The position numbers were made by a program, and so were the translations under genes. From Streptomyces sp. NBC_00464 (GTDB taxonomy: Bacteria > Actinomycetota > Actinomycetes > Streptomycetales > Streptomycetaceae), in assembly GCF_036013915.1 (NCBI RefSeq), contig NZ_CP107899.1, positions 2,914,001-2,978,000 of the forward strand: DNA of 64,000 nucleotides, given 5' to 3'. The notes beneath the pieces were generated by a model. The model was given only the letters and a program-made list of their open reading frames with translations. It did no database searches and had not been told where the DNA came from. Shown one piece after another: positions 9,118-30,697 of the stretch; position 1 is the stretch's first letter; every line of letters begins with the position of its first letter.

Positions 9118-9166
9118 TCGGGGGACGGCTCGCCGGCCGACGGTACGGTCACCGGAGCCGCTCCCG

Positions 9167-10997: not shown

Positions 10998-11017
10998 GTC
11001 TACTCCCCAGATCGCGC

Positions 11018-11060: not shown

Positions 11061-11092
11061 TGCCGGTGCACGAGACTGCGAACGACGTGGTG

Positions 11093-12331: not shown

Positions 12332-12548
12332 GTGTGCCCTACCTCCGTGGTCGGCGGCTTCCGTCCGGATGCACTCATCCACTCCGTGCCGCCATTCTCA
12401 CCCGTTTTGGTCAGGAGTGGTTGTCCTCCATCTGACCAAATCGGGCGGCTGAAGGCGTCAGCCCGCGGGAGCAACTCCGCGTACCTCTCCGGGATGACAC
12501 CGGGAGGCGGTTCCTGCACCAACCAGTAGGGGTTCAGGCGGAAGGCAC

Positions 12549-13559: not shown

Positions 13560-13715
13560 GAGGGGATCTCCTGTCTGCTGACGATCACACGGAATGTCGA
13601 TGTGTCGCTGTCATCACTCAAGTCAGCGTATCCGGTCCCCTTTGGATCACCGTGGGCGCCTTCCCGCCACCGCCGGTATGTTCGGGATCAGCTCATACGA
13701 TCAGGAGTTGTCCCT

Positions 13716-15215: not shown

Positions 15216-15224
15216 GGTACCCCC

Positions 15225-17219
15225 ATGCACATCCAGACCTCCTTCCCGTACGAGACCACCCGCGAGGACATCTACATCCCGCTCCCGGACGGCACCCAGC
15301 TGTACGCCCGGATCTGGCGGCCGGTGACGGACGAACCCGTCCCGGCGCTGCTGGAGTACCTGCCGTACCGGCTGAGCGACTGGACCGCGCCGCGCGACTG
15401 GCAACGCCACCCCTGGTACGCCGGGCACGGCTACGCCTCGGTCCGGGTCGACGTCCGCGGCCACGGCAACAGCGAGGGGATGCCGGGCGACGAGTACGAC
15501 GCGACGGAGCTCGCCGACGGAGTGGCCGTCATCCACTGGCTGGCCCAGCAGGAGTGGTGCTCGGGCCGGGTCGGCATGTTCGGCATCTCGTGGGGCGGCT
15601 TCAACTCGCTCCAGATCGCCGCGCTCGCCCCCGAGCCGCTGAAGGCGATCGTCACCGTCTGCTCGGCCGACGACCGCTACGACAACGACGTCCACTACAT
15701 GGGCGGCTCGGTCCTCGCCGTGGACATGCACGCCTGGGCGGCGACCATGCTCGCCTTCGTCTGCCGGCCGCCCGACCCGGCGGACGTCGGCGACGACTGG
15801 CGGCAGATGTGGCTGGACCGGCTCGAAGCCGTGGACCCCTTCATCCACACCTGGCTGGCCCACCAGACACGCGACGACTACTGGAAGCACGGCAGCGTCT
15901 GCGAGGACTACTCCGCCATCAAGGCGAACGTCCTCGCGGTCGGCGGCTGGCACGACCCGTACCGCGACACCGTGCTCCGGCTCGTCGAGCACCTGGACCC
16001 GGCGAAGGTCCGCGGGCTGATCGGGCCCTGGTCGCACCAGTACCCCGACCGCGGGCTGCCGCCCGGTCCCGGCATCGGCTTCCTCCAGGAGACGCTGCGC
16101 TGGTGGGACCAGCATCTGAAGGACCACGACACCGGCGTCATGAAGGAGCCGCTGCTGCGGTCCTGGATCAGCGAGTCGCACCGGCCGGCCACGGTGTACG
16201 AGACGCTGCCCGGCCGCTGGGTCGGGGACACCAGCTGGCCCTCGGAGAACGTGGCGCCGGTCGCGTACGCCCTCCAGGGCGGGCCGCAGATCGTCGACTC
16301 GCCGCAGCAGACCGGGCTGGACGCCGGGCGGTTCTTCCCGTTCGGCAACGACGCCGACCTGCCGCCCGACCAGCGTGACGAGGACGCCAAGTCGGTGTGC
16401 TTCGAGTTCCCCGTCGAGGGCGCCCCGATCGAGATCCTGGGCCGCCCCCGGGTGAAGCTGCGGATCCGGATGGACGTGCCGCGCGGCCAGGCCATCGCCC
16501 GGCTCTGCGATGTCGCCCCCGACGGCTCCTCCACCCTCGTCACCCGCGGCGTCCTCAACCTCGCCGCCCGCGACGGCCGGGACCGCACCGAGGACTGGCC
16601 CCTCGGCGAGACCGAGGACGTCACCTTCGACCTGAACGGCATCGGGCACACCTTCCCGCCCGGCCACCGGATCAGGCTCGCGGTCTCCTCCTCGTACTGG
16701 CCCTGGATCTGGCCGCAGGCAGGCTCGGCGGGCTTCACCCTGGACGCCGACGGCAGCTTCGTCGAACTCCCGGTGCGCCGGCACACCGAGGACCCCTCGA
16801 TCCGCTTCGAGGAGCCCGAGCAGTCGGAGCCGCTCGGCGTCGTCTTCCCCGTCACGCTCGACGAGCAGCGCCCCGAGCGGCTGGTCGTGCGCGATGTCGC
16901 CAAGGGCGAGTGGCGGATGGAGGTCGACCCGCGTTACGGCGGCACCCGGGTCTATCCGGACGGCCTGGAGTTCACCGAGGACGCGGTGGAGACGTACACG
17001 ATCCAGGAGAGCGACCCGCTCTCCGCGCGCACCCGATCCGACTGGACGGTCCGGCTGCACCGGCCGGAGATGGCCTGGGACGTGCTGGTCGAGACGCATT
17101 CCGAGATCTCCGCCGACGCCGACGACTTCATCACCTCCAACGAGGTCGTCTGCAAGGAGGGCGACGAGGTCGTCTTCCACCGGACCTGGGAGAAGCGGAT
17201 TCCGCGCACAGCGGGGTGA
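15225..17219 (+). CDS. CocE/NonD-family serine hydrolase (X-Pro dipeptidyl-peptidase S15-like)
   Basis: 664-residue alpha/beta hydrolase. The nucleophile elbow GISWGG places Ser122, the aspartate is in GGWHDPYRDTV and the histidine in IGPWSHQYP, completing the triad. The C-terminal 250 residues form the jelly-roll X-Pro-DAP domain (DVTFDLNGIGHTFPPGHRIRLAVSSSYWP). Relatives hydrolyse cocaine esters, beta-lactam esters, glutaryl groups or X-Pro dipeptides. No signal peptide is present, so it acts in the cytoplasm. Together with the upstream peptide transporter it may process imported peptides, an inference from position. Confidence 0.88.
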   Translation: MHIQTSFPYETTREDIYIPLPDGTQLYARIWRPVTDEPVPALLEYLPYRLSDWTAPRDWQRHPWYAGHGYASVRVDVRGHGNSEGMPGDEYDATELADGVAVIHWLAQQEWCSGRVGMFGISWGGFNSLQIAALAPEPLKAIVTVCSADDRYDNDVHYMGGSVLAVDMHAWAATMLAFVCRPPDPADVGDDWRQMWLDRLEAVDPFIHTWLAHQTRDDYWKHGSVCEDYSAIKANVLAVGGWHDPYRDTVLRLVEHLDPAKVRGLIGPWSHQYPDRGLPPGPGIGFLQETLRWWDQHLKDHDTGVMKEPLLRSWISESHRPATVYETLPGRWVGDTSWPSENVAPVAYALQGGPQIVDSPQQTGLDAGRFFPFGNDADLPPDQRDEDAKSVCFEFPVEGAPIEILGRPRVKLRIRMDVPRGQAIARLCDVAPDGSSTLVTRGVLNLAARDGRDRTEDWPLGETEDVTFDLNGIGHTFPPGHRIRLAVSSSYWPWIWPQAGSAGFTLDADGSFVELPVRRHTEDPSIRFEEPEQSEPLGVVFPVTLDEQRPERLVVRDVAKGEWRMEVDPRYGGTRVYPDGLEFTEDAVETYTIQESDPLSARTRSDWTVRLHRPEMAWDVLVETHSEISADADDFITSNEVVCKEGDEVVFHRTWEKRIPRTAG

Positions 17220-17225
17220 ACCCCA

Positions 17226-17259
17226 CCGCCGTGTCCCCGTGTTCACGGGGACACGGCGG
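17226..17259 (+). terminator. Perfect hairpin terminator after CocE
   Basis: A 16-base-pair uninterrupted stem (17226-17241 with 17244-17259), closing on TT, six bases after the CocE stop and followed by AATTTT. It is the cleanest terminator in the window and ends the POT-CocE transcript. Confidence 0.9.
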
Positions 17260-17304
17260 AATTTTCCGGGCATTGGGGATGATTGAGGCACTGCCGCCGG
17301 GGGA

Positions 17305-17330
17305 TGTCCCCCACGTAACGTGTCCCCCAC
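17305..17330 (+). repeat. Two direct repeats TGTCCCCCAC upstream of fumarylacetoacetase
   Basis: TGTCCCCCAC occurs at 17305-17314 and again at 17321-17330, a 16-base period (about 1.5 helical turns). The first copy is the right part of a GGGGGATGTCCCCC palindrome (17299-17312 region). They lie 29-54 bases before ATG 17359 and look like a protein-binding site; no factor is known. Confidence 0.5.
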
Positions 17331-17358
17331 AGCGACCTGGAAAGCGAGGCAGCAACAG

Positions 17359-18588
17359 ATGCCCGAGCAGAGCAGCCCGCTCGAACTGGCCGAGGGCGAT
17401 CCCTTCGGCCCGCACAACCTTCCGTACGGTGTCTTCTCCACCACCGACCGGCCCGACGAGCGGCGGGTCGGCGTCCGCATCGGCAACCACGTGCTGGACG
17501 CCGGGGCGGCCGCGCACGCGCTGGGTTCGCCCTACGCGCAACTGCTGGCCCAGCCCGACCTGATGCCCCTGCTCGCGGCCGGCCGCACCGCCTGGAGCGA
17601 TGTGCGCCGGGCCCTGACCGCGTGGGTGACGGTGCCGGCCCACCGCGCGGACATCGAACCGTTGCTGCATCCCGTCGAGTCGGTGACCCTCCACCTGCCC
17701 TACCGGGTCGCGGACTACGTGGACTTCTACGCCAGCGAGCACCACGCCACCAACGTCGGCCGCATCTTCCGCCCCGACGGCGACGCCCTCACCCCCAACT
17801 GGAAGCACCTGCCGATCGGCTACCACGGCCGCGCGGGCACCGTCGTGGTCTCGGATACGGACGTGGTGCGCCCGTCGGGACAGCGCAAGGCCCCCGCCGA
17901 CCCGGCTCCCGTCTTCGGCCCGTCCGTCAAGCTGGACATCGAGGCCGAGGTCGGCTTCGTCGTCGGCGTCGGCTCGGAGCAGGGCCGGCCGGTACCGCTG
18001 GCCGACTTCCGCGAGCACGTCTTCGGCCTGTCGCTGCTCAACGACTGGTCGGCGCGGGACATCCAGGCCTGGGAGTACGTCCCGCTGGGCCCCTTCCTCG
18101 GCAAGTCCTTCGCCACCTCCGTGTCGGCGTGGGTGACACCGCTGGAGGCCCTGGACGCCGCCCGGACCGCCCCGCCCGCCCGCGACTTCCCGCTGCTGCC
18201 CTACCTCGACGACGCGGACGACGAGGAGCCCGGCGGCTTCGACCTCCGGCTCTCCGTCGCGATCAACGGCCAGGTGGTCTCCGAGCCGCCGTTCACCACC
18301 ATGTACTGGACGGCCGCCCAGCAGCTGGCGCAGATGACGGTCAACGGCGCCTCGCTGCGCAGCGGTGACCTGTACGGCTCCGGCACCATCAGCGGCGCCC
18401 AGCCGGCCCAGCGGGGCTCCCTGCTCGAACTCACGTGGAACGGGCGCGATCCGCTCGAACTCCCGGAGGGCAAGCGAACGTTCCTGGAGGACGGCGACAC
18501 GGTGACCATCACCGCCTGGGCCCCCGGCCCGGACGGCACCCGCGTCGGTCTCGGCGAGGTGACCGGACGGATCGTACCGGCACCATGA
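17359..18588 (+). CDS. Fumarylacetoacetase
   Basis: 409-residue enzyme that hydrolyses fumarylacetoacetate to fumarate and acetoacetate, the last step of tyrosine/homogentisate breakdown. The N-terminal SH3-like domain (residues 1-110) and the FAH domain are both present; metal and substrate residues lie in YVDFYASEHHATNVG, PIGYHGRAGTVV, EAEVGFVVG and LNDWSARDIQAWEYVPLGPFLGKSF. Length matches the family. ATG 17359 has GCGAGG nine bases upstream; an earlier GTG at 17320 falls in the repeat region. No homogentisate dioxygenase gene is adjacent. The stop overlaps the next start (ATGA). Confidence 0.92.
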   Translation: MPEQSSPLELAEGDPFGPHNLPYGVFSTTDRPDERRVGVRIGNHVLDAGAAAHALGSPYAQLLAQPDLMPLLAAGRTAWSDVRRALTAWVTVPAHRADIEPLLHPVESVTLHLPYRVADYVDFYASEHHATNVGRIFRPDGDALTPNWKHLPIGYHGRAGTVVVSDTDVVRPSGQRKAPADPAPVFGPSVKLDIEAEVGFVVGVGSEQGRPVPLADFREHVFGLSLLNDWSARDIQAWEYVPLGPFLGKSFATSVSAWVTPLEALDAARTAPPARDFPLLPYLDDADDEEPGGFDLRLSVAINGQVVSEPPFTTMYWTAAQQLAQMTVNGASLRSGDLYGSGTISGAQPAQRGSLLELTWNGRDPLELPEGKRTFLEDGDTVTITAWAPGPDGTRVGLGEVTGRIVPAP

Positions 18589-19232
18589 CCCAGCCTCCCG
18601 GCCCCGGACCGACGCTGCCCGAGGAACTGCTGCTGCTCGCGCTGGACCCGCAGCGCGGCAAGCCGTACTGCCGCAACCGTTTCCTGGAGTACGCGCTGGC
18701 CGGGGCGGCCCTCGCGGAGCTGGAGCTGCAGGGGCGGATCGCCGGACAACGCGGCGAGATCCAGGTGGTCGACCCGCTGGAGCCGCCGGACCCGCTCCTG
18801 GCCGCGCTGATGCCGAGCCTGCCCGCGCCGGGCAAGGGCGGGCGCGGTTCGGGGGCCTCGGCCAGGAGCTGGGTCCGGCGCGCCGCACGGCAGGTCGGGG
18901 GCATGTATCTGGAGTCCCTGGTGCGGCAGGGCATCCTGCTCCGGGAGACCCGCCGCCTCCTCGGTCTGGTGCCGTACCACCGCCACCCGGTGGCGGCGGA
19001 GGATGTGGCCGAGCAGGCCCGTTGGCGCTACACCGCCGCTGAGCAGGAGGGCTTCCCCGACCCCCGCAGCCGGGCGCTCGCCGCGCTCGTCGCGGCCGCC
19101 GGCCTGACCCGCCACGCCGGCGACGGCCGCGCCGACCGGGGTGCGATGCGCCGCCTGATCCGGGAAAGCTGGCCTGCCCTCGCGGTGCAGCGCAACATCC
19201 GCCGGGACCGGGCGAACCAGGCGGGGAACTAG
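18585..19232 (+). CDS. GPP34/GOLPH3-family protein
   Basis: 215-residue, mostly helical protein. TLPEELLLLALDPQRGKP at residues 9-26 and the following ALAGAALAELELQGRI, with the later RQGILLRE-type strand and the ALAALVAAAGL block, are the fold markers of GPP34 (GOLPH3/Vps74-like) proteins, which in eukaryotes bind phosphatidylinositol-4-phosphate on Golgi. Actinomycetes carry many copies with unknown roles, possibly membrane-lipid binding. The start ATG overlaps the fumarylacetoacetase stop (ATGA), so expression is coupled, although no functional link is known. Confidence 0.82.
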   Translation: MTQPPGPGPTLPEELLLLALDPQRGKPYCRNRFLEYALAGAALAELELQGRIAGQRGEIQVVDPLEPPDPLLAALMPSLPAPGKGGRGSGASARSWVRRAARQVGGMYLESLVRQGILLRETRRLLGLVPYHRHPVAAEDVAEQARWRYTAAEQEGFPDPRSRALAALVAAAGLTRHAGDGRADRGAMRRLIRESWPALAVQRNIRRDRANQAGN

Positions 19233-19362
19233 GAGCTCCCCGTACGGCCCCCGGGTGGCAGATCTTGCCCCGGTCAGAGGCGTCACCGCAGGTCACAGCC
19301 GTTCCATCACGGCCCCCAAGTGGCGCAACACTGCGGCAACACCATCTCCCCCACGGCGTCGG

Positions 19363-19368
19363 TATGGT
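19363..19368 (+). promoter_or_regulatory. -10 box for leaderless GntR gene
   Basis: TATGGT is followed by seven bases and ATG 19376, with no Shine-Dalgarno between. Position and form fit a leaderless promoter; no clear -35 is present. If the upstream in-frame ATG 19364 were the start, this box would lie inside the gene. Confidence 0.4.
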
Positions 19369-19375
19369 CCACCGC

Positions 19376-20146
19376 ATGCCAGCCGAACGCATCCGTGAGC
19401 ACACCGTGCCCGTCGCCGCCGCCCGCCGGCGCCGGCTGCGCGCGGACGGTGCCCGGCTCCTCGCCGACCTGCTGCGCCACCAGGTGCGCACGGGTGCGTT
19501 CCCCGGTGGCGTCCTGCCGTACGAGGACACCATCGGCACCGACTACCGCGTCTCGCGCAACACCGTCCGCCAGGCCCTCGATCTGCTGCGCGGCGAGGGG
19601 ATCGTCGAACGGCAGCCGGGCGTCGGCACCGTCGTCGTCGGCGAGAAGTACCCGCACGCCGTGGACCGGCTCCAGGGACTCGCCGAGACCCTGCACGAAC
19701 ACGGCCGGGTCACCAACGAGGTCCGTACCGTCGGACCGGTCCCCGCACCCGCCCCCGTCGCCCGGCGGCTCGGCGTCGACGAGCACACCGACGTGCTCTA
19801 CATCGAGCGCCGCCGGCTGCTGAACGGGCTGCCGCTCTCCCTCGACCTCACCTATGTCCCGATGGACCTCGGCGCCGGGCTGCTCGGCTCCGATCTGGAG
19901 AACACCGACGTGTTCCGGCTGCTGGAGTCACTGACCGGGCAGCCGCTGGGCAGCGCCGACATCACCCTGGAGGCCGTCAACGCCGACGCGCACTCCGCCG
20001 CCGTCCTGGAGACCCCGCGCGGCTCCGCCGTCCTGATGCTGGAGCGCCTCACCCATCTCGCCGACGGACGCCCCGTCGACCTGGAGTTCATCCGGTTCCG
20101 CGGCGACCGCATCAGCATGAACGGCGTGCTGCACCGGACCGGCTGA
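19376..20146 (+). CDS. GntR-family regulator, HutC/UTRA type
   Basis: 256-residue transcription factor. Residues about 10-75 form the winged helix (YEDTIGTDYRVSRNTVRQALDLLRGEGIVERQPGVGTVV) and residues 95-250 form a UTRA ligand-binding domain (LYIERRRLLNGLPLSLDLTYVP, VLMLERLTHLADGRPVDLEFIRFRGDR). It is directly upstream, on the same strand, of the ferredoxin/ABC/flavoprotein cassette, so it is the likely local regulator with a cassette-related small molecule as inducer. Confidence 0.86.
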   Translation: MPAERIREHTVPVAAARRRRLRADGARLLADLLRHQVRTGAFPGGVLPYEDTIGTDYRVSRNTVRQALDLLRGEGIVERQPGVGTVVVGEKYPHAVDRLQGLAETLHEHGRVTNEVRTVGPVPAPAPVARRLGVDEHTDVLYIERRRLLNGLPLSLDLTYVPMDLGAGLLGSDLENTDVFRLLESLTGQPLGSADITLEAVNADAHSAAVLETPRGSAVLMLERLTHLADGRPVDLEFIRFRGDRISMNGVLHRTG

Positions 20147-20201
20147 CCCGGCCTTCGCCTCCCTACCGCCCGTCCGAACACCCCTTCCCTGGAGCCCCGC
20201 C

Positions 20202-20429
20202 ATGCCTCTGGCGCCCCAGCGGGCCGACGTGCCCGTGACCATCGACGAGTCGAAGTGCATCGACGGCTGCACCCTCTGCGTCGACATGTGCCCGCTCGAC
20301 TCCCTCGCCATCCACCCGGACAACGGCAAGGCCTACATGCACGTCGACGAGTGCTGGTACTGCGGCCCCTGCGCGGCCAGGTGCCCCACCGGAGCGGTGA
20401 CCGTCAACATGCCCTACCTCCTGCGCTGA
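20202..20429 (+). CDS. Dicluster 4Fe-4S ferredoxin, AprB-like
   Basis: 75-residue iron-sulfur protein with two clusters. Cys19, 23, 26 and 30 (C-x3-C-x2-C-x3-CP) and Cys51, 54, 57 and 61 (C-x2-C-x2-C-x3-CP) are the ligands. The spacing, KAY before the second cluster and CPTGA after it resemble the beta subunit of dissimilatory adenylylsulfate reductase (AprB) more than generic ferredoxins, although it is shorter. It should pass electrons to or from the flavoprotein encoded at the end of the cassette. GGAG precedes ATG 20202. Fourteen bases separate it from the binding-protein gene. Confidence 0.88.
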   Translation: MPLAPQRADVPVTIDESKCIDGCTLCVDMCPLDSLAIHPDNGKAYMHVDECWYCGPCAARCPTGAVTVNMPYLLR

Positions 20430-20443
20430 AAGGCCCGACTCCC

Positions 20444-21811
20444 ATGCGAAGCAAGGCATTCGGCGCGCTGTCCGGCGCCGCGCTGCTCGTGATGCTCACC
20501 GCGGGCTGCGGCGGCGGGGCGAGCGCGGACGACAGCGGCACGGTCACGGTGACCGTCGGCTACCAGTCACGGACCATCAACACGGTCACCGCCGGCACCC
20601 TGCTGCGCTCCCTCGGCTACTTCGAGGACGAACTGCGCAGCCGCGGTGAGCGGGACGGCGTCACGTACGAGGTGAAGTGGCAGGACTACGCCACCGGCGC
20701 ACCGATCACCGCGCAGATGACCGCCGGAAAGATCGACATCGGTTCCATGGGCGACTTCCCCCTGCTCATCAACGCGGCCCGCGGCAAGCAGCTCGACCGC
20801 CCCACCCGGCTCGTCTCGGTCACCGGCTACAACCTGGCCGGCGGCCTCAACACGGTGGTCACCGGACCGGATTCGAAGCTGGACTCGCTCACCGACCTGC
20901 GCGGCAAGAAGGTATCCACCAGCGTCGGATCGGCAGCGGACGGCACCCTCGTCCGCGCGCTCCAGCAGGCCGGGCTCGACCCGGAGAAGGACATCCGCAA
21001 GCTCAACCAGCAGCCCGCGGTGGGCGCTTCGGCGCTCCAGGCCGGCAGCGCCGACGCCCTCTCGCAGTTCGTCGCCTGGCCCGGACTGCTCGCCTTCCAG
21101 GGGCGGGCGAAGGCACTGTACGACGGCGCCGAGCTGAAGCTGCCGACCTTCCACGGGGTCACGGTCCGCCAGGACTTCGCCACGAAGCGGTCCGCCGTGG
21201 TGGAGGACTTCCTGCGCGCCCAGGGCCGGGCGACCGACTATCTGCACGAGCACCCGGTGGCGGCGTCCGAGTCGGTCGCGAAGGCGACCGGGCTGCCCGC
21301 CGAGGTCGTCCACCTCTACAACGGCGCCCAGGGCATCGCCACCTTCGACACCACGCTGAAGCCCGCCCTGATCGCGGCGCTGAAGAAGGACGTCCCGGTG
21401 CTGCGCTCGGCGAAGCTCGTCGGTGACGTGGATGTGGACGCGTTCGTCGACGACAGCTATGTGAAGCGGGTGTACGGCTCCGGCTACGCGAAGGCCCTCG
21501 CCGCCGGCCCGCCCGCACGTCGCGGCGGCGAGGTCTGGCCGAAGGGGAAGGACACCACGACGTCGTACGCCACCTCCGCCGAACTACTGCGGTACGTGGC
21601 CGCGCACCGCGACGCGGTCCGGGTGGCGTACGTCCCCGACGCGTCCACCGGCACGCTCTGGTTCGCGGACCGGGCGGTGTGGGTCGCAGACGGGGACGCG
21701 CTGCGGCCCTACGTCACCGAGTCCGCGGCCCACGCCGATGTGCGGGCCCACGCCGGCGCCCGCACGGTCCCGTACGCCACCGCGCTGAGCCTGGCCCGGG
21801 GCGTGTCATGA
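20444..21811 (+). CDS. ABC importer substrate-binding lipoprotein (SsuA/TauA-like) with extra C-terminal domain
   Basis: 455-residue lipoprotein with lipobox LTAGC, so the mature protein starts at Cys22. Residues 35-340 are a NMT1/SsuA-type periplasmic-binding fold (GTLLRSLGYFEDEL, GSMGDFPLLINAARGK, LRGKKVSTSVGSAADGTLVRALQQAGLD) used for sulfonates, nitrate or thiamine precursors. About 100 further residues are unusual for the family; the final 75 (ELLRYVAAHRDAVRVAYV, TGTLWFADRAVWVADG) resemble the NosL fold in pattern, which is only an eye match. The stop overlaps the permease start (ATGA). Confidence 0.85.
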   Translation: MRSKAFGALSGAALLVMLTAGCGGGASADDSGTVTVTVGYQSRTINTVTAGTLLRSLGYFEDELRSRGERDGVTYEVKWQDYATGAPITAQMTAGKIDIGSMGDFPLLINAARGKQLDRPTRLVSVTGYNLAGGLNTVVTGPDSKLDSLTDLRGKKVSTSVGSAADGTLVRALQQAGLDPEKDIRKLNQQPAVGASALQAGSADALSQFVAWPGLLAFQGRAKALYDGAELKLPTFHGVTVRQDFATKRSAVVEDFLRAQGRATDYLHEHPVAASESVAKATGLPAEVVHLYNGAQGIATFDTTLKPALIAALKKDVPVLRSAKLVGDVDVDAFVDDSYVKRVYGSGYAKALAAGPPARRGGEVWPKGKDTTTSYATSAELLRYVAAHRDAVRVAYVPDASTGTLWFADRAVWVADGDALRPYVTESAAHADVRAHAGARTVPYATALSLARGVS

Positions 21812-22671
21812 GCGGCGGCCGGTGGTCCCTCGTCCGACGCGCGCTCTCGCTGGTCGCGGCACTCGGTCTGTGGCAGGCACTGACCTCCTACGACATCAAC
21901 CTGTGGCTGCGCTTCGAACAGTTCCCGACGGTCACGGAGGTGGCCCGCGCCTACGCGGACCGGATCACGGGCGACGCGTACTGGCAGGACCTCACCGACA
22001 GCCTGACCAGGATCGTCACCGGTTTCGCGCTGGCCGCCGTCCTCGGGGTCACCGTCGGCACAGCCATCGCCCGCTCGCGGCTCGCCGCCGATCTGCTCGG
22101 CCCGGTCCTCGAAGTGCTGCGCCCGGTCCCGGCGATCGCGCTCGTCCCGGTCGCGATCCTGCTCTTCCCCAGCAACGAGCAGGGCATCGTCTTCATCACC
22201 TGCACCGCGGCGTTCTTCCCGGTCATGGTCTCCACCCGGCACGCGGTGCGGGCACTGACGCCGGTGTGGGAGGAGGCCGTCCTGACGATGGGCGGCGGAC
22301 GGTGGCGGATCCTGTGGTCCGTCGTGCTGCCCGGCGCGCTCCCCGGCATCCTCGGCGGGCTGTCCGTCGGCATCGGGGTGTCGTGGATCTGCGTCATCTC
22401 GGCCGAGATGATCTCCGGCGAGTACGGGGTCGGCTACCGCACCTGGCAGGACTACACCGTCGTCGACTATCCGGGCGTCTTCGTCGGCATGGCCACCATC
22501 GGGCTGCTCGGCTGGCTGACCTCGACGGCCGTGGAGCTGCTCGGCCGCAGGCTGACCCGTTGGCTGCCGCGCACGGAGAACCGCCCGGTGGCTCCCGCAC
22601 GCCGCCGGCCCGCCCCGGCGGCGACCGCCGTCCCCTCGGTCCGTACAGCACAGGAACGGGTGCGTTCATGA
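21808..22671 (+). CDS. ABC importer permease (SsuC/TauC type)
   Basis: 287-residue BPD_transp_1 permease with about six helices. The EAA-type cytoplasmic loop that contacts the ATPase reads EEAVLTMGGGRWRILWSVVLPGALPGI near residues 150-178, matching nitrate/sulfonate permeases. Starts with ATGA overlap on the binding-protein stop and ends with ATGA overlap on the ATPase start, giving strict translational coupling. A basic Pro/Ala tail follows the last helix. Confidence 0.9.
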   Translation: MSGGRWSLVRRALSLVAALGLWQALTSYDINLWLRFEQFPTVTEVARAYADRITGDAYWQDLTDSLTRIVTGFALAAVLGVTVGTAIARSRLAADLLGPVLEVLRPVPAIALVPVAILLFPSNEQGIVFITCTAAFFPVMVSTRHAVRALTPVWEEAVLTMGGGRWRILWSVVLPGALPGILGGLSVGIGVSWICVISAEMISGEYGVGYRTWQDYTVVDYPGVFVGMATIGLLGWLTSTAVELLGRRLTRWLPRTENRPVAPARRRPAPAATAVPSVRTAQERVRS

Positions 22672-23405
22672 GCACGAACCTCCACGGTGTCCGGCTCACC
22701 CTGCGCGACGCCACGCTCGGCCGGGCCGGGGTGCCCGTCCTGGACGGGGTCGACCTCGACGTCGTACCCGGCGAGGTCCTCACCGTCGTCGGCCCGTCCG
22801 GCTGCGGGAAGTCGACGCTGCTGCGCACCCTGGCCGGGCTGCTGCCGGCGCTCGGCGGCGAGGTGAGCCAGGACGGCGAACCCGTCACCGCGCCCCGTGC
22901 CGAACGGGCCCTCGTCTTCCAGGACGACGCGCTGCTCCCCTGGCGCACGGTCCGCGCCAACGTCGAACTGCCCCTCGCCATCCAGGGGATGGGGCGCGCC
23001 GAACGACGGGAGCGCGCCGAGGACTGGCTGGCCCGGGTCGGCCTCGCCGAGCACGCCGCCAAGCTCCCGCACCGGCTCTCCGGCGGTCAGCGCCAGCGCG
23101 TCCAGCTGGCCCGTGCCCTGGCGGCCGGGCCCCGCGCGGTCCTGATGGACGAGCCGTTCGGCGCGCTCGACGCCCAGACCAGGGCCGGGATGCAGCAGCT
23201 GCTCGTCGAGGTACTGCGGGGCAGCGGCGCCACGGTCGTCTTCGTCACGCACGACGTGGACGAGGCGCTGTTCCTCGGCGATCGCCTCGCGCTGCTCCCG
23301 ACGGGCCGGGTGCTGCCCGTGCCCCGTCCGCGCGAACGCGCCGCCCACGCCGATCCGGCGACGGTCGCGCTGCGCCGCGAGGTCCTGGAATCCCTCACTC
23401 CTTGA
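22668..23405 (+). CDS. ABC importer ATP-binding protein (SsuB/TauB type)
   Basis: 245-residue ATPase. Walker A GPSGCGKST near residue 44, Q-loop FQDDALLPWRTV, signature LSGGQRQRVQLARAL, Walker B VLMDEPFGALD and switch VFVTHDVDEAL are all intact. The FQDDALLPW Q-loop is typical of nitrate/sulfonate/taurine importers. Ends just before the flavoprotein gene; the possible TTG start of that gene overlaps this stop. Confidence 0.92.
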   Translation: MSTNLHGVRLTLRDATLGRAGVPVLDGVDLDVVPGEVLTVVGPSGCGKSTLLRTLAGLLPALGGEVSQDGEPVTAPRAERALVFQDDALLPWRTVRANVELPLAIQGMGRAERRERAEDWLARVGLAEHAAKLPHRLSGGQRQRVQLARALAAGPRAVLMDEPFGALDAQTRAGMQQLLVEVLRGSGATVVFVTHDVDEALFLGDRLALLPTGRVLPVPRPRERAAHADPATVALRREVLESLTP

Positions 23406-23431
23406 ACTTCCTTCTCCTGAAAGGCCCTCCC

Positions 23432-26152
23432 GTGCAGATCCCCGCCCTCGCCGACGCCGAGGAACTCTCCTGCGACGTGCTGGTGGTCGGCGGCGGTACG
23501 GCCGGCACGATGGCGGCCCTCACCGCCGCCGAGCACGGCGCCTCGGTCCTCCTGCTGGAGAAGGCGCACGTCCGGCACTCCGGCGCGCTCGCCATGGGCA
23601 TGGACGGAGTGAACAACGCCGTGATCCCGGGCCGCGCCGAGCCCGACGACTACGTCGCCGAGATCACCCGCGCCAACGACGGCATCGTCGACCAGTCCAC
23701 CGTCCGGCAGACCGCGACGCGTGGCTTCGCGATGGTGCGCCGGCTGGAGTCGTACGGGGTGAAGTTCGAGAAGGACGAGCACGGCGAGTACGCGGTCCGC
23801 CAGGTCCACCGCTCCGGCTCGTACGTGCTGCCGATGCCCGAGGGCAAGGACGTGAAGAAGGTCCTCTACCGGCAGCTGCGCCGCCGCGAGATGCGCGAGC
23901 GCATCCGCATCGAGAACCGCGTCATGCCGGTGCGCATCCTCACCGGCGACGACGGCCGGGCCATCGGCGCGGCCGGCTTCAACACCCGCACGGGACAGTT
24001 CGTCACGGTCCGGGCGGGCGCAGTCATCCTCGCCACGGGTGCCTGCGGACGACTCGGCCTGCCGGCCTCCGGCTACCTCTACGGTACGTACGAGAACCCC
24101 ACCAACGCCGGTGACGGCTACGCCATGGCGTACCACGCGGGCGCCGAACTGACCGGCATCGAGTGCTTCCAGATCAATCCGCTGATCAAGGACTACAACG
24201 GCCCGGCCTGCGCCTACGTCGCCAACCCCTTCGGCGGCTATCAGGTCAACCGGCACGGCGAACGCTTCGTGGACTCCGACTACTGGTCGGGCCAGATGAT
24301 GGCGGAGTTCGCGGCGGAGGTAGCCTCCGACCGGGGACCGGTCTACCTGAAACTGAGCCATCTGCCGGAGGAGTCCGTCAGCGCGCTGGAGACGATCCTC
24401 CACTCCACCGAGCGGCCGACCCGCGGCACGTTCCACGCGGGACGCGGCCACGACTACCGCACCCACGACATCGAGATGCACATCTCCGAGATCGGACTGT
24501 GCGGCGGCCATTCAGCCTCCGGCGTCCGCGTCGACGACCACGCCCGCACCACGGTGGACCGCCTCTACGCGGCCGGCGACCTCGCCTGCGTACCGCACAA
24601 CTACATGATCGGCGCGTTCGTCTTCGGCGATCTGGCGGGCGAGGACGCGGCCCGGTTCACCGCGTACGAGGGCGAGTTGCCGGCCGACCAGCTCGACGCG
24701 GCCCACGAGCTGGTCTACCGGCCGCTGCGCAACCCGGACGGGCCTCCGCAGCCGCAGGTCGAGTACAAGCTGCGCCGCTTCGTGAACGACTACGTGGCCC
24801 CGCCCAAGTCCGGTGCCCGGCTCTCGATCGCCCTGGAGTCGTTCGAGCGGATGCGGACGGACCTCGCGGAGATGGGCGCGAAGACCCCGCACGAGCTGAT
24901 GCGGTGCGCGGAGGTGTCGTTCATCCGGGACTGCGCGGAGATGGCGGCCCGCTCCTCGCTCGCCCGTACGGAGTCCCGCTGGGGCCTCTACCACGAGCGC
25001 ACGGACCATCCGGAGCGGGACGACGCGGACTGGTTCCACCACCTGGACCTGTACAAGTCGGCTTCGGGCGCGATGGAGTTCACGGCCCGGCCGGTGGCGC
25101 CGTACCTGGTTCCGGTGGAGGGCTTCGCCCCGGCCGGCGGGCCGGTACGGCGGATCGGCGAGGTGGAGCCGGAGGGGGTGGGGACTGCGGGTGCGCGGGA
25201 CGCGGCGCCGGTGTCCACGTCCGCCCGTACGCGCGCGCCGGAGGCCCCCGGGCCGGTCCCTTCCACCTCCCCGCGCATTCTGGAGCTGCTGGCCCTGAAC
25301 GAGGACGAGCCGGAACTGGCGACCCTCACCCCCTACCTGGCCGACCCCGACCCGGCCGTCCGCCGCGCCGCCGTCGCCGCGCTCACGGAGTCCACCCCGA
25401 CGGGCGCGGGCCCCGCCCTGGCGGCCGCGCTCGCCGACCCGGCCGCCCCCGTCCGCACGGCCGTCGCCGCGTCCCTGCGGGAACTGGTCGAGGTGCTGGA
25501 ACCCTCGCCCGCCCTGCGCACGCCCCTGGTCACCGCGCTCTCCTCGGCCGACCCGGTGGTCCGCGCCGCCGCCCTGGACACGCTGCGGGCGCTGCGGCTC
25601 GGCGATGCGGAGCTGTACGGCGCCACGCTCACCGACCCGGATCTCGATGTACGGGTCGAGACCGTCCGGGCCCTGGTGTCCGTGGACGCGGTGGAGGGGC
25701 TGGCCCTGGCCGCCGCCGACCCGGCCCGCGAGGTGCGGGTGGCGGTGGCGAAGGGGCTGGCCGCTGTCCGCTCCCCCGCCCCGGATCCGCTGGCTCCGCT
25801 GCTGGACGACCCGGACGCGCTGGTGCGGGCGGCGGCTCTGGCCGCGCTTGCGGGGACGGGGTGCCCGGCGGCGTACGCCGAGCGGGCGGTGGCCGCGCTG
25901 ACGGACCCGGCCTGGCGGGTACGCGCGGGCGCGGCGACGGCACTGTCCTCGGCGGATCCGGAGGAGGCGACCGGCCCGCTGGCCGGTGCGCTGGCCGACC
26001 CGAACGCCGATGTGCGCAAGGCGGCGGTGCTGGCGCTGCTGCGTCACCCGGGGCACGCGGCGGCGCGGGAGGCCCTGGCGGGGGCGGTGGCGGACCCGGA
26101 CGCGGATGTGCGGGCCTATGCGGGGAGAGGGATGGCGGTCAACGGCGCGTGA
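23432..26152 (+). CDS. AprA/fumarate-reductase-like flavoprotein fused to HEAT repeats
   Basis: 906-residue protein. Residues 15-570 are an FAD_binding_2 flavoprotein: dinucleotide motif VVGGGTAGTM (about 18-27), AGAVILATGACG, the FQINPLIKDYNGPACAYV active-site-region block and LYAAGDLACVPHN with NYMIGAFVFGDLAGEDA. The arrangement resembles AprA and succinate/fumarate dehydrogenases. After a Pro/Ala linker, residues about 615-900 are roughly nine HEAT-like repeats with the recurring pattern LxDPDxxVRxAAxxAL. GTG 23432 is preferred since GAAAGG is eight bases upstream, the same CTGAAAGGCCC leader seen before the binding-protein gene; a TTG at 23402 overlapping the ATPase stop is the alternative. 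Probable partner of the small ferredoxin; substrate unknown. Confidence 0.85.
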   Translation: MQIPALADAEELSCDVLVVGGGTAGTMAALTAAEHGASVLLLEKAHVRHSGALAMGMDGVNNAVIPGRAEPDDYVAEITRANDGIVDQSTVRQTATRGFAMVRRLESYGVKFEKDEHGEYAVRQVHRSGSYVLPMPEGKDVKKVLYRQLRRREMRERIRIENRVMPVRILTGDDGRAIGAAGFNTRTGQFVTVRAGAVILATGACGRLGLPASGYLYGTYENPTNAGDGYAMAYHAGAELTGIECFQINPLIKDYNGPACAYVANPFGGYQVNRHGERFVDSDYWSGQMMAEFAAEVASDRGPVYLKLSHLPEESVSALETILHSTERPTRGTFHAGRGHDYRTHDIEMHISEIGLCGGHSASGVRVDDHARTTVDRLYAAGDLACVPHNYMIGAFVFGDLAGEDAARFTAYEGELPADQLDAAHELVYRPLRNPDGPPQPQVEYKLRRFVNDYVAPPKSGARLSIALESFERMRTDLAEMGAKTPHELMRCAEVSFIRDCAEMAARSSLARTESRWGLYHERTDHPERDDADWFHHLDLYKSASGAMEFTARPVAPYLVPVEGFAPAGGPVRRIGEVEPEGVGTAGARDAAPVSTSARTRAPEAPGPVPSTSPRILELLALNEDEPELATLTPYLADPDPAVRRAAVAALTESTPTGAGPALAAALADPAAPVRTAVAASLRELVEVLEPSPALRTPLVTALSSADPVVRAAALDTLRALRLGDAELYGATLTDPDLDVRVETVRALVSVDAVEGLALAAADPAREVRVAVAKGLAAVRSPAPDPLAPLLDDPDALVRAAALAALAGTGCPAAYAERAVAALTDPAWRVRAGAATALSSADPEEATGPLAGALADPNADVRKAAVLALLRHPGHAAAREALAGAVADPDADVRAYAGRGMAVNGA

Positions 26153-26872: not shown

Positions 26873-28897
26873 TCAGTCGAACTCCGGCGGCTCCTCGTCC
26901 CAGCCGAACTCCGGGTCGGGGGCCGCTGACGCGGCCGGGGTGGCGGGAGCAGAGGGCCGGGGCGCCTCCGCCGGTGCCGCGGGTTCCGCCTCGTCCGGGA
27001 GCCCCGAGAGCCCTGCCAGGACCTCCAGCACCCCCTCCCCGTACGTCGCCAGCTTCTTCTCGCCCAGGCCGCTGATCCCGCCCAGCTCGCCGAGCGACGA
27101 CGGGCGCAGGGTCGCGATCTCGCGCAGCGTCGCGTCGTGGAAGATCACATACGCCGGGAGGCCCAGCTCCTTCGCCTGGGCGCCGCGCCAGGCGCGCAGC
27201 GCCTCGAAGACCGGGACCGCCGCCTCCGGGAGGTCGGCGGCCGCCGCCTTGCCCTTCCGCTCGCCCTTCGACGCGGAGGAGCGGGACGACGTGGCCTGCT
27301 TCGCCTCCTTGCGCAGCAGCACCTCGCGCTCGCGGCCGAGCACGGTGCCGCTCTCTTCCGTGAGCACCAGCGTGCCGTACTCGCCCTCGACGGCGATCAG
27401 GCCCTGGGCCAGCAACTGCCGGACCACGCCCCGCCATTCCGCCTCGGCCAGCTCCTCGCCGATGCCGAAGACCGAGAGCTGGTCGTGGTCGAACTGGATG
27501 ACCTTCGCGGTCTTGCGGCCGAGCAGGATGTCGATGATCTGGCCGGCGCCGAACTTCTGTCCGCGCTCCCGCTTCAGCCGCACCACCGTGGACAGCAGCT
27601 TCTGGGAGACCACGGTGCCGTCCCAGGTCTCGGGCGGGGCCAGGCAGGTGTCGCAGTTGCCGCAGGAAGCTGTGGTGGGGTCCTGGCCGAAGTACTTCAG
27701 CAGCTGGGCCCGGCGGCACTGCACGGTCTCGCACAGGGCCAGCATCGAGTCCAGGTGCGCGGCGGCCCGGCGGCGGAACGCCTCGTCGCCCTCGCCGCCC
27801 TGGATGAGCTTGCGCTGCTGGACGACGTCCTGGAGTCCGTACGCCATCCAGGCCGTGGACGGGGCGCCGTCACGGCCGGCCCGGCCGGTCTCCTGGTAGT
27901 AGCCCTCGACCGACTTCGGCAGGTCCAGGTGGGCGACGAAGCGCACGTCCGGCTTGTCGATACCCATGCCGAACGCGATCGTCGCGACGACGACCAGGCC
28001 CTCCTCGCGCAGGAAGCGGGACTGGTGGACCGCGCGGGTGCCGGCGTCCAGACCCGCGTGGTACGGCACGGCCTCGATGCCGTTGCGGCAGAGGTACTCG
28101 GCGGTCTTCTCCGTGGAGTTGCGCGAGAGGCAGTAGACGATGCCCGCGTCCCCCTCGTGCTCCTCCTTGAGGAAGGACAGCAGCTGCTTCTTCGGGTCGG
28201 CCTTGGGCACGATGCGGTACTGGATGTTGGGACGGTCGAAGCCGGCCACGAAGTGCTTGGCGTCGGGCATGCCCAGGCGCTGGGTGATCTCCCGGTGCGT
28301 GGCCTCGGTCGCCGTCGCCGTGAGCGCGATGCGCGGGACGTCGGGCCAGCGCTCGCCCAGCACGGACAGGGCCAGGTAGTCGGGCCGGAAGTCGTGGCCC
28401 CACTGGGCGACACAGTGCGCCTCGTCGATCGCGAAGACGGAGATCTCGCCGCGGGAGAGCAGGCCGAGCGTGGAGTCCAGGCGGAGCCGCTCCGGCGCCA
28501 GGTACAGGAGATCCAGCTCACCGGCGACGAACTGGGCCTCCATCGAGCGGCGCTCGTCGAAGTCCTGCGTGGAGTTGATGAACCCGGCCCGCACGCCGAG
28601 CGCCCGCAGCGCGTCCACCTGGTCCTGCATCAGGGCGATCAGCGGGGAGATGACGATGCCTGTGCCCCGTCTGACCAGGGACGGGATCTGGTAGCAGAGG
28701 GACTTGCCGCCGCCGGTCGGCATGAGCACGACGGCGTCTCCGCCCGTCACCACATGGTCGACGACCGCTTCCTGCTCGCCGCGGAACGTCTCGTAGCCGA
28801 AGACCCGGTGCAGCGTCTGCCGCGCCTCGCTCTCGGTCACGCCCGTGGTCGCGTCAGTGGTCATGTCCGTCACGCCTGTCCCGCCCGTCATGCTCAT
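26873..28897 (-). CDS. recQ: ATP-dependent DNA helicase RecQ
   Basis: 674-residue superfamily 2 helicase, 3'-5', acting in recombination and repair. Walker A MPTGGGKS, the DEAH box ([18 protein letters not shown]), SALTATAT-like motif III (ALTATAT) and [10 protein letters not shown] motif VI are intact. The RecQ-C zinc site uses CETVQC then CGNCDTC, followed by a winged helix. A single HRDC domain ([20 protein letters not shown]) lies near residues 560-630, and the tail is acidic and Pro/Ala rich. ATG 28897 has GGGGGAA upstream. It is the first gene past the nuo terminator, same strand. Confidence 0.95.
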
Positions 28898-28974
28898 CGC
28901 TCTGTTCCCCCGACGACTGGTCCCGTTCTGTCCCTGCGCTCTCCCCTGCCACGATAGGCGCCGCCTACGACAAA

Positions 28975-29007
28975 GCCGGACGGGCTTGACTTCCAAGCCC
29001 GTCCGGC
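28975..29007 (-). terminator. Terminator of the nuo operon
   Basis: A 14-base-pair perfect stem (28975-28988 with 28994-29007) with loop of five bases, 26 bases after the nuoN stop. On the minus strand it is followed by TTTGTCG, so it reads as an intrinsic terminator for the long nuo transcript. Confidence 0.85.
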
Positions 29008-29032: not shown

Positions 29033-30697
29033 CTACCTCACGAACACTCCGGCCTGGCTCGCCAGGTCCAGGAAGTACTGCGGGGCCAGGCCCAGCACCA
29101 GGGTGACCGCGACACCGACCGCGATCGTGGTCATCGTCAGCGGGGACGGGACGGCGACCGTGGGGCCGTCCGCCTTCGGCTCGCTGAAGAACATCAGCAC
29201 GATGACCCGGATGTAGAAGAACGCGGCGATCGCCGAGGAGATCACACCGACGACGACCAGGCCGCCCGCACCGCCCTCGGCCGCGGCCTTGAACACCGCG
29301 AACTTCCCGGAGAAGCCCGAGGTGAGCGGGATACCGGCGAAGGCCAGCAGGAACACCGCGAAGACCGCGGCGACCAGCGGGGAGCGCCGGCCGAGTCCGG
29401 CCCACTTCGACAGATGCGTCGCCTCGCCGCCCGCGTCACGCACCAGGGTGACGACGGCGAAGGCGCCGACCGTCACGAAGGAGTACGTGGCCAGGTAGAA
29501 GAGCACCGAGGAGATGCCCTGCGGGGTGGCCGCGATGACACCGGCGAGGATGAATCCGGCGTGCGCGATCGAGGAGTAGGCCAGCAGCCGCTTGATGTCG
29601 GTCTGGGTGATGGCGACGATCGCTCCGCCCACCATCGTGACGATCGCGATGCCCCACATGACCGGGCGCAGGTCCCAGGTGAGGCCCGGCAGCACCACGT
29701 ACAGCAGGCGCAGCAGCGCACCGAACGCGGCGACCTTCGTGGCCGCGGCCATGAAGCCGGTGACCGGGGTCGGGGCGCCCTGGTAGACGTCCGGGGTCCA
29801 CATGTGGAACGGGACGGCGCCGACCTTGAAGAGCAGACCGGTCAGGAGCATCGCGCCGCCGATCAGCAGCAGCACGTCGTTGCCCATGGTGTCGGCGAGC
29901 GCCGGGTCGATCTGCTGGATCGAGCCGTCGACGACGGTGGCGATCTGCGCGTACGAGACGGAGCCCGCGTATCCGTAGAGCAGCGCGATCCCGAAGAGCA
30001 GGAACGCCGAGGAGAAGGCGCCGAGCAGGAAGTACTTCACCGCGGCCTCCTGCGACATCAGCCGCTTGCGGCGGGCGACGGCGCACAGGAGGTAGAGCGG
30101 GAGCGAGAAGACTTCCAGGGCCACGAAGAGTGTCAGCAGGTCGTTGGCCGCCGGGAAGACCAGCATGCCCGCCACCGCGAAGAGGAGCAGCGGGAAGACC
30201 TCGGTGGTGGTGAACCCGGCCTTGACCGCGGCCTTCTCGCTGTCGCTGCCGGGGACCGAAGCGGCCTGTGCGGCGAACGAGTCGACTCGGCTGCCGTGCG
30301 ACTCGGGGTCGAGCCGCCGTTCGGCGAAGGTGAAGACGGCGACCAGCGACGTCAGCAGGATGGTGCCCTGGAGGAACAGGGCGGGCCCGTCGACGGCGAT
30401 GGCGCCCATCGCGGCGATGTGTGCCTTTGTCGTACCGTATCCGGCGGCGGCCAGGCCGATCACCGCGGCGAACGCGGCGACCAGCGCGACGACGGTCAGG
30501 AAGACCTGCGTGTAGTAGCGGGCCCGGCGCGGCACGAAGGCCTCGACGAGCACGCCCAGGACGGCGACTCCGATCACGATCAGGACCGGGGTCAGCTGGG
30601 TGTACTCGATGACCGGGGCCTTGAACTTCTCGTCCGGGGCGGCCGATGTCACCCCGCCCGCCATTGTCCACAGGCTGTGGACAGCTGTTGCGCTCAC
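29033..30697 (-). CDS. nuoN: NADH-quinone oxidoreductase subunit N
   Basis: 554-residue antiporter-like membrane subunit of complex I with 14 or more helices. The buried pumping residues lie in blocks such as VGAVPFHMWTPDVYQGAPTPVTGFMAA and TDIKRLLAYSSIAHAGFILAG. It sits at the end of the membrane arm closest to NuoA/J/K. An insert of about 40 residues after helix 3 (DPESHGSRVDSFAAQAASVPGSDSEK, split) is longer than in enteric NuoN and is common in actinomycetes. GTG start overlapping the nuoM stop (GTGA). Last gene of the operon. Confidence 0.95.
   Translation of the reverse strand: MSATAVHSLWTMAGGVTSAAPDEKFKAPVIEYTQLTPVLIVIGVAVLGVLVEAFVPRRARYYTQVFLTVVALVAAFAAVIGLAAAGYGTTKAHIAAMGAIAVDGPALFLQGTILLTSLVAVFTFAERRLDPESHGSRVDSFAAQAASVPGSDSEKAAVKAGFTTTEVFPLLLFAVAGMLVFPAANDLLTLFVALEVFSLPLYLLCAVARRKRLMSQEAAVKYFLLGAFSSAFLLFGIALLYGYAGSVSYAQIATVVDGSIQQIDPALADTMGNDVLLLIGGAMLLTGLLFKVGAVPFHMWTPDVYQGAPTPVTGFMAAATKVAAFGALLRLLYVVLPGLTWDLRPVMWGIAIVTMVGGAIVAITQTDIKRLLAYSSIAHAGFILAGVIAATPQGISSVLFYLATYSFVTVGAFAVVTLVRDAGGEATHLSKWAGLGRRSPLVAAVFAVFLLAFAGIPLTSGFSGKFAVFKAAAEGGAGGLVVVGVISSAIAAFFYIRVIVLMFFSEPKADGPTVAVPSPLTMTTIAVGVAVTLVLGLAPQYFLDLASQAGVFVR

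Follow-up and report, generated by a model that had tools for sequence, protein, structure and literature searches.

A Streptomyces importer operon with an APS-reductase-like flavoprotein: a candidate route from imported sulfonyl compounds to sulfite

Introduction

The window analysed here, 64,000 nucleotides from the 8.96 Mb genome of the aerobic actinomycete Streptomyces sp. NBC_00464 (contig NZ_CP107899.1, positions 2,914,001 to 2,978,000 of the forward strand), holds a co-directional block of six genes at 19376-26152, encoding a GntR/UTRA regulator, a ferredoxin, a substrate-binding protein (SBP), the permease and the ATPase of an ATP-binding cassette (ABC) transporter, and a flavoprotein. 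A preliminary description of this DNA had listed the six genes, all of which are present and individually supported by Pfam matches, and had likened the ferredoxin and the flavoprotein to the two subunits of dissimilatory adenylyl-sulfate (APS) reductase, AprB and AprA. The locus thereby raises the question of what such a redox pair does beside a dedicated importer in an aerobe.

Our strongest claim, drawn from sequence comparison, is that the flavoprotein belongs to a third branch beside AprA and 3'-phosphoadenylyl-sulfate (PAPS) reductase, in which the nucleotide site is mostly lost and which occurs in aerobes with an AprB-like ferredoxin, a HEAT-repeat partner and usually an importer. As for function, we favour, with a rough probability of 0.48 and thus at slightly less than even odds, an uptake unit in which an imported sulfonyl compound would be reductively cleaved to sulfite by the APS-reductase-like complex.

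The flavoprotein forms a separate clade beside AprA and PAPS reductase

The flavoprotein scores above the NCBIfam cut-offs of NF010374 (1628 bits, cut-off 1196) and NF006131 (867 bits, cut-off 587), two models (PRK13800/PRK08275) that carry the generic name 'fumarate reductase/succinate dehydrogenase flavoprotein subunit'. It stays below the adenylyl-sulfate reductase alpha model NF005331 (266 bits, cut-off 557) and far below the aprA model (133 bits, cut-off 642). Its best match in the PDB is the alpha subunit of the PAPS reductase of Methanothermococcus thermolithotrophicus (MtPAPSR; 8a8o_A, 2.5e-57), followed by AprA (6.6e-32), with SdhA and NadB lower. At least 6493 homologues at E <= 0.001 were found among 7998 scored candidates, a set that takes in the wider superfamily too.

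A maximum-likelihood tree was calculated from 40 rows, including 15 family members from three phyla (with L025 and L034, and without L014, which is the same protein as L131, L015, L017, L027, L018 and L019). In this tree the family members form one clade (support 100/100), which is sister (99/98) to AprA and the PAPS-reductase-like proteins taken together and lies outside the SdhA, FrdA-like and NadB-like rows; the order of the outgroups is unsure because of long branches among the outgroup rows, which leaves the family clade unaffected. The flavoprotein is thus found neither inside the AprA clade nor inside the MtPAPSR clade nor among SdhA, FrdA and NadB, and on this position we rejected the flavoprotein being a standard fumarate reductase, a succinate dehydrogenase or an aspartate oxidase. 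The grouping with fumarate reductases or aspartate oxidases that would have overturned the preliminary description was not observed. Although the protein passes both generically named models, the tree places the family by APS reductase and not by fumarate reductase. The clade is well conserved over large distances, the Nostoc and the window Streptomyces flavoproteins being 61% identical.

Active-site residues

Nine family rows were compared with AprA and PAPS-reductase rows, and all residue correspondences given here are on the basis of this alignment. AprA grips the oxygens of the sulfate with Asn74 and His398 and, via water, with Arg265 and Trp234; ribose and phosphate may contact Arg265, Val273, Gly274, Tyr95 and His446, and Arg317 and Leu278 clamp the adenine (PMC2211403). 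For PAPS, Gln145 plus a loop that may select this substrate have been described (PMC10322725).

Asn74 and His398 are invariant in 9/9 family rows and correspond to Asn71 and His370 of the window protein, whereas five of the six sulfonucleotide-site residues tested (Arg265, Arg317, Gln145, Tyr95, Gly274 and His446) are replaced, only His446 being kept. All nine rows show Leu for Arg265, Met for Arg317, Glu for Tyr95, Cys for Gly274, Val for Gln145 and Tyr for Trp234, and Tyr in place of Phe448, where Tyr also occurs in PAPS-reductase rows. As far as the alignment can tell, half of the contacts to the sulfonyl group are retained, whereas those to the nucleotide are mostly lost. The replaced nucleotide-site residues fit a substrate other than a sulfonucleotide.

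These residues also bear on a fumarate-reductase-style reaction, in which hydride chemistry would act on a C-C or C-N bond of an imported sulfonate or carboxylate and leave the sulfur uncleaved. Membership in the same superfamily, the NCBIfam name and the loss of two of the four AprA sulfate contacts speak for such chemistry. We nevertheless consider it rather unlikely, given that the flavoprotein lies outside the SdhA/FrdA/NadB rows, that the RLGTNSLL region of the host SdhA is not shared by the family in the alignment, and that the electron wiring is of AprB type; ordinary SdhA and FrdA use a different iron-sulfur subunit.

The ferredoxin and the sulfur metabolism of the host

The tryptophan that wires electrons in AprB between cluster and FAD (motif DECWxC) is present in 92/92 aligned family ferredoxins (sequences of 73-82 aa, those with stop codons or of unusual length being excluded), so that the ferredoxin combines the eight Cys and the wiring Trp of an AprB beta subunit. 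The long AprB-type C-terminal tail is absent from the family ferredoxins and present in L130, a relative of PAPS-reductase type encoded by a draft genome that belongs to the same phylum. With the dissimilatory AprAB of Archaeoglobus fulgidus (1jnr/2fja) the window pair shares sequence kinship, two clusters and the Trp; it differs in the mostly lost nucleotide site and in a genome without a Sat match or a DsrA over cut-off. The likeness to AprAB noted at the outset therefore holds for the redox pair, in its closest structures and its eight Cys, whereas the AprA active-site block, which had also been taken as shared, is only partly kept, and the label APS reductase is thus not warranted.

Searches of the whole host genome gave 0 matches for ATP sulfurylase (Sat) and no DsrA over cut-off (best 38 bits, cut-off 393), as expected from the preliminary description, which had found no Sat or Dsr genes near the locus. 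Instead, a cys cluster at about G000:C1:965000-971000 contains CysH (268 bits, cut-off 154), CysD (456, cut-off 397) and CysN (546, cut-off 336), all over cut-off, along with an SBP of the SsuA family and a nitrite/sulfite-reductase-like gene that reaches none of the model cut-offs (373 bits against 594). On these grounds we rejected a dissimilatory sulfur metabolism of the host. With CysH, CysD, CysN and a sulfite/nitrite-reductase-like gene at hand, sulfite could be used by the host and (P)APS reduction is already covered.

These findings also bear on a reading of the pair as a (P)APS reductase that serves assimilation, as in MtPAPSR. MtPAPSR (PDB 8a8o; PMC10322725) is the closest solved structure and resembles the window pair in its two-subunit design of an FAD-containing alpha and a two-[4Fe-4S] beta subunit, in the Trp wire and in Asn/His at the sulfonyl position; the retained His446 points the same way. 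The family is, however, a sister clade with about 30-33% identity to the MtPAPSR-clade members L130 and L131, lacks Sat and the beta tail, has most nucleotide-site residues replaced and adds an importer and HEAT repeats. L130 passes the adenylyl-sulfate reductase cut-off that the window protein fails (812 against 266 bits, cut-off 557), and at 5829-14042 of its locus an AprAB of PAPS-reductase type adjoins ATP sulfurylase (583 bits, cut-off 387), a sulfite-reductase-like gene (below cut-offs) and sulfonate-type ABC-transporter-like genes, an arrangement that probably serves assimilatory sulfate reduction by AprAB. The window genome, by contrast, uses CysDN and has a CysH over cut-off. A (P)APS reductase was accordingly rejected as a label, on the missed model cut-off and the replaced nucleotide-site residues, and we regard an enzyme of the MtPAPSR kind as highly improbable.

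Importer, regulator and conservation within Streptomyces

The SBP, one permease and one ATPase belong to the same superfamilies as the sulfonate importers SsuABC/TauABC and make up a complete Ssu/Tau-type importer set; such a combination of a lipoprotein SBP and COG0715/COG0600/COG1116-type partners is typical of importers. The window SBP misses the cut-offs of both SsuA (132 bits against 163.5) and TauA (70 against 304), and its Pfam matches are to the NMT1 and phosphonate-binding families. Compared with SsuABC/TauABC, the SBP is about 130 residues longer and has a NosL-like end in relatives, and the partner is an AprAB-like pair and not SsuD/TauD. NosL (PF05573), a copper-chaperone family, matched the C-terminus of 21/26 family SBPs (E up to 1, best 1.3e-6) and was not detected in the window SBP itself. 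The regulator, in which the UTRA domain of the preliminary description is evident, has HutC/PhnF-like matches below cut-off.

Among 150 Streptomyces species drawn, 50 carry the flavoprotein over cut-off. The SBP (E 1e-60) was found in 48 of these 50 carriers and in 0/100 non-carriers (Fisher 2.6e-37). As to the two SBP-less carriers, the stretch from ferredoxin to flavoprotein in G308 (L146) is devoid of transporter genes, and the 4314-base contig of G373 stops 870 bases upstream of the flavoprotein gene. The exact six-gene order was observed in 19/20 fetched carriers, these being the highest-scoring of the 50 that had not previously been inspected. That an importer is kept with the redox genes, as had been proposed, is thus borne out within the genus.

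Five further Streptomyces genomes gave partial matches only, with fragments of operon genes in L157, L158, L159 and L161 and none in L160. The unit thus appears to decay as a block, and the four fragment-only genomes suggest repeated loss at an ancestral site. Of the decayed copies, 3/4 adjoin the same fumarylacetoacetate (FAA)-hydrolase gene.

HEAT component and distribution beyond Streptomyces

The last third of the window flavoprotein consists of HEAT repeats, overlooked in the preliminary description, which in most relatives are encoded by a separate gene. In L168, from a draft Streptomyces genome, the flavoprotein (594 aa) and the HEAT stretch occupy frames of their own, in the order gntR, flavoprotein, HEAT stretch, ferredoxin, SBP, permease and ATPase (4236-11200), with an FdxA-like match after the operon and a YeiH-exporter-like match upstream. 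This unfused arrangement supports the window fusion as a joining of partners.

The family is spread over Actinomycetota, Cyanobacteriota (including Prochlorococcus) and Pseudomonadota. In a draw from the wider phylum 8/296 genomes were over the NF006131 cut-off, and 51 plasmid-collection records (a few of them chromosome-sized) have a relative at E <= 1e-40. Gene presence was counted by tblastn across 88 loci outside Streptomyces, comprising 8 plasmid records and the best 80 of at least 587 species-genome relatives, those 80 being ranked by likeness to the Nostoc sequence. In 82/88 loci the flavoprotein is accompanied by both the ferredoxin and the HEAT gene, in keeping with the idea that the genes are kept together. 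Counted singly, the ferredoxin is present in 84/88 and the HEAT gene in 82/88 loci, followed by the cassette-type SBP (43/88; with permease and ATPase in 42/88), GntR (41/88), Mrp/NBP35 (34/88, all 34 cyanobacterial) and DUF971 (30/88). As to the remaining six loci, L035 is fused, L043, L080, L089 and L117 have 43-2332 bases beyond the flavoprotein, and L070 has 5291 bases and no match.

Thirteen cyanobacterial loci have a LysR gene nearby, and the one scanned (L053) combines PF03466 with NMT1_2, an SBP-like C-terminal domain. In 6/13 of these loci the cassette SBPs best-match the LysR gene (31-40% identity), and such a regulator may serve as an intracellular sensor of the ligand that is taken up.

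In L035, the Tsukamurella copy, nucleotidyltransferase, ThiF, Mov34 and SAVED genes adjoin (13275-17561), which we take to resemble the defence set known as CBASS; Qat defence genes are annotated by the Methylobacterium copy (L164). A role in phage defence was considered and dropped, a scan of three proteins having given only a generic HEAT match.

Sulfur neighbours and electron supply

At least one strictly scored sulfur gene lies in the fetched flank of 38/88 loci, so that the organosulfur theme of the preliminary description is found in part of the relatives only. The neighbours are SsuA-like (24 loci), SsuD-like (8), YeiH-type exporters (6) and, by annotation, TauE/SafE-like (3). The one SsuD-like gene tested, in L106, is over the NCBIfam cut-off (605 bits, cut-off 518), the YeiH-type exporter of L038 is below its own (197 bits, cut-off 233), and TauE/SafE-annotated genes are also found in Aquabacterium and Rhizobium. 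Furthermore, 8/88 loci contain a CysE-like gene and a family 2A encapsulin together with its cargo, a cysteine desulfurase. Sulfur starvation induces encapsulin 2A, in which a cysteine desulfurase is enclosed (PMC8049743, PMC8346489). The search covered 36 proteobacterial genomes, out of 42 loci of this kind; the encapsulin is present in 14 and lies within 9 kb of the flavoprotein in 8 of these 14, compared with 0.05 expected under random placement. The eight genomes (four Acinetobacter, three Paraburkholderia/Burkholderia and one other betaproteobacterium) would perhaps amount to three independent events. An SsuD over cut-off is encoded somewhere in 28/36 of the proteobacterial genomes.

With respect to electrons, the cluster of Methylobacterium radiotolerans contains FdxA and a ferredoxin-NADP reductase, and FdxA together with a long FAD/NAD(P) oxidoreductase is part of the cassette in 8 loci (A. 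caldus, Thiobacillus, Halothiobacillus, Hydrogenophilales and four metagenome-assembled genomes without genus assignment). These neighbours allow, and in our view favour, reduction.

The same enzyme could run in reverse, with an imported sulfur compound, or sulfite derived from it, being oxidised at the flavin and the electrons leaving via the ferredoxin. APS reductase has been discussed for both directions (PMC2211403), the cassette occurs in sulfur-oxidiser groups, and the FAD oxidoreductase could equally pass electrons to NAD(P)+. We hold this to be unlikely: most AMP-binding residues are gone, which makes sulfite plus AMP an improbable couple, and the scavenging neighbours point to assimilation. 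Moreover, Methylobacterium, an aerobic heterotroph, pairs ferredoxin-NADP reductase with FdxA, a setting in which the reductase normally feeds the ferredoxin.

A substrate other than a sulfur anion, such as a nitrogen, phosphorus or metalloid compound, would agree with the HutC/PhnF-like (below cut-off) regulator, with the NMT1 and phosphonate-binding matches of the SBP and with the presence of the cassette in sulfur-oxidiser groups. The sulfur neighbourhood in several lineages and the kinship to APS reductase argue for sulfur, and a non-sulfur anion seems improbable to us.

The published Acinetobacter operon

Contrary to the preliminary description, which had called the system undescribed, its Acinetobacter version is already in print: a 2026 study of Acinetobacter baumannii ATCC 17978 named A1S_1717-1722 a 'GntR-ABC efflux system' (PMC13104710). 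L041 represents the same operon, with a chromate transporter upstream and identical gene order. Of the five intergenic gaps, three are as given in that paper (28, 19 and 34) and two differ (20 versus 74, 1 versus 16), perhaps through start-codon choice. According to PMC13104710, the genes form a single transcript, GntR binds and activates its own promoter, gntR and permease knock-outs are sensitive to H2O2 and are complemented, and Juttukonda 2018 is cited for H2O2 induction. The ferredoxin gene A1S_1719 is listed among biofilm-only transcripts under iron acquisition (PMC3758355). Besides PMC13104710, we recognised no description of the operon among the literature matches listed.

The published operon and the window operon share GntR, flavoprotein, ferredoxin, SBP, permease and ATPase. 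In the text available, PMC13104710 names flavoprotein and ferredoxin without studying them and reads the system as efflux and defence against reactive oxygen species, whereas we read it as uptake plus a redox enzyme. An ABC efflux pump acting in oxidative stress, with the redox genes as passengers, would account for the single transcript, the promoter binding and activation by GntR and the complemented knock-outs (PMC13104710), and L041 matches in gene order beside the chromate transporter. Across the 88 loci, though, ferredoxin and HEAT gene are more constant than the cassette-type SBP, and importers are the transporters that combine a lipoprotein SBP and a permease of TauC/SsuC type; efflux therefore strikes us as quite improbable. 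Given this anatomy, the Acinetobacter H2O2 phenotypes may instead be read as consequences of lost uptake, as cells short of sulfur or of Fe-S clusters can become sensitive to H2O2.

Operon layout and flanking genes

Coordinates of the features are compiled in Table 1. Junctions of SBP with permease and of permease with ATPase show the 4-base ATGA overlaps described previously. A third overlap, of ATPase and flavoprotein, is real only with TTG 23402 as start; GTG 23432 leaves a 26-base gap and is the likelier predicted start, because a ribosome-binding-like GAAAGG precedes it and because the closest homologue (P0001) has 906 aa. Inverted repeats upstream of gntR, compared between the window and the Streptomyces loci, contain no shared operator.

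Table 1. Features of the operon in the window (positions counted from the first nucleotide of the window)
Feature	Position	Strand	Evidence
Putative promoter/operator region, partly conserved	19254..19373	+	Conserved stretches in alignment with Streptomyces loci upstream of gntR
Conserved blocks within that region	GGTGGCAGATCTTG 19254-19267; CCGCAGGTCACAG 19286-19298; AGTGGCGCAACACTGCGGCAACAC 19319-19342; CGGTATGGTCCACC 19360-19373	+	
GntR/UTRA transcriptional regulator, 256 aa	19376..20146	+	PF07702 3.8e-35, PF00392 1.6e-13
AprB-like ferredoxin, 75 aa, 8 Cys, two [4Fe-4S], DECW Trp	20202..20429	+	Pfam Fer4-type
Substrate-binding lipoprotein (SBP), 455 aa, lipobox-like LTAGC	20444..21811	+	NMT1 (Pfam); SsuA_fam 132 bits, cut-off 163.5
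ABC permease, SsuC/TauC type	21808..22671	+	PF00528 (BPD_transp_1) 2.4e-19; NCBIfam best SaoP and TauC, below cut-off
ABC ATPase, TauB/SsuB type	22668..23405	+	PF00005 (ABC_tran) 5.2e-32; taurine ATPase model 227 bits, below cut-off 357
Flavoprotein, FAD-binding APS-reductase-like catalytic part	23432..25126	+	FAD_binding_2 and Succ_DH_flav_C; NF010374, NF006131; PDB 8a8o_A 2.5e-57
C-terminal HEAT-repeat domain of flavoprotein	25322..26152	+	PF13646/PF02985, residues ~641-908

The gene preceding gntR encodes a GPP34 (Golgi phosphoprotein 3-like) protein (18435-19232; PF05719, 1.7e-39). Further upstream, an FAA-hydrolase family gene (PF01557, 17320-18588) is also present in 17/20 fetched Streptomyces stretches. 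On the minus strand, a RecQ helicase gene (26873-28996) and a gene whose product resembles NADH dehydrogenase subunit N by sequence (29033-30697, putative) follow the operon.

Discussion

From gene content, conservation, clade and residues kept or lost, we infer a direction, a substrate class, a sulfite product, a HEAT role and a regulator ligand along the following lines. SBP, permease and ATPase would import a small organosulfur anion of sulfonyl type (-SO3-), which a soluble cytoplasmic APS-reductase-like complex would then reduce. Electrons would pass from NADPH via ferredoxin-NADP reductase or FdxA to the small ferredoxin, travel along its two [4Fe-4S] clusters and its conserved Trp, and reach FAD. 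N5 of the reduced flavin would attack the sulfur, fixed in place by Asn71 and His370, in the same manner as AprA acts on APS; the organic part would leave, and the flavin-sulfite adduct would collapse to release sulfite for ordinary assimilation. A probable role of the HEAT domain or subunit is docking, either of the ferredoxin or of a factor that delivers clusters (Mrp/ApbC or DUF971, neighbours in many relatives), and the UTRA regulator would sense substrate or product.

Several observations weigh against the reading in which a sulfonyl compound is taken up and reductively cleaved to sulfite. At the active site, two of the four sulfate-polarising AprA residues are gone, Arg265 being Leu (Leu261) and Trp234 Tyr (Tyr230), and His446, on the nucleotide side of AprA, is kept in 9/9 family rows. 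Expelling carbon from an unactivated alkyl sulfonate through attack at sulfur is chemically hard, and therefore only activated substrates are easily imagined, such as S-sulfonates, thiosulfate-like compounds and alpha-carbonyl or aryl sulfonates. Another SBP of the host genome, that of the cys cluster, tops the SsuA cut-off (205 bits against 163.5) while the window SBP does not, and 45/88 loci lack a match to the cassette-type SBP. More than half of the loci (50/88) are without a strictly scored sulfur neighbour in the fetched flank, and a chance expectation was computed for the encapsulin only, the other sulfur-neighbour counts standing without a background rate. Four of the eight oxidoreductase-bearing loci come from sulfur-oxidiser groups, hosts that should not be sulfur-short; the cassette in such organisms fits poorly with a purely scavenging role and speaks against it. 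A match to the CysH/CysD family was found in 0/6 oxidoreductase-cassette genomes searched (L084, L086, L088, L092, L107 and L116, several genomes being drafts) versus 30/30 others. The Acinetobacter operon has been assigned to an H2O2/OxyR response and not to sulfur (PMC13104710), and we found no substrate, product or sulfur-expression datum for the system.

Taken together, these results lead us to place beside APS reductase a widespread, conserved protein that is mislabelled 'fumarate reductase/succinate dehydrogenase' in public records, and which would represent a natural case of the APS-reductase scaffold being re-aimed at another substrate. More tentatively, this nucleotide-free third branch may perform a ferredoxin-driven, O2-independent stripping of sulfite from imported organosulfur anions, as a counterpart of SsuD/TauD that in some organisms would be coupled to the sulfur-starvation encapsulin. 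If true, aerobes would possess an O2-independent route to organic sulfur, which would matter for how bacteria in soil, in plant nodules and in the sea obtain their sulfur, and the published Acinetobacter operon, tied to stress and virulence, would gain a new reading.

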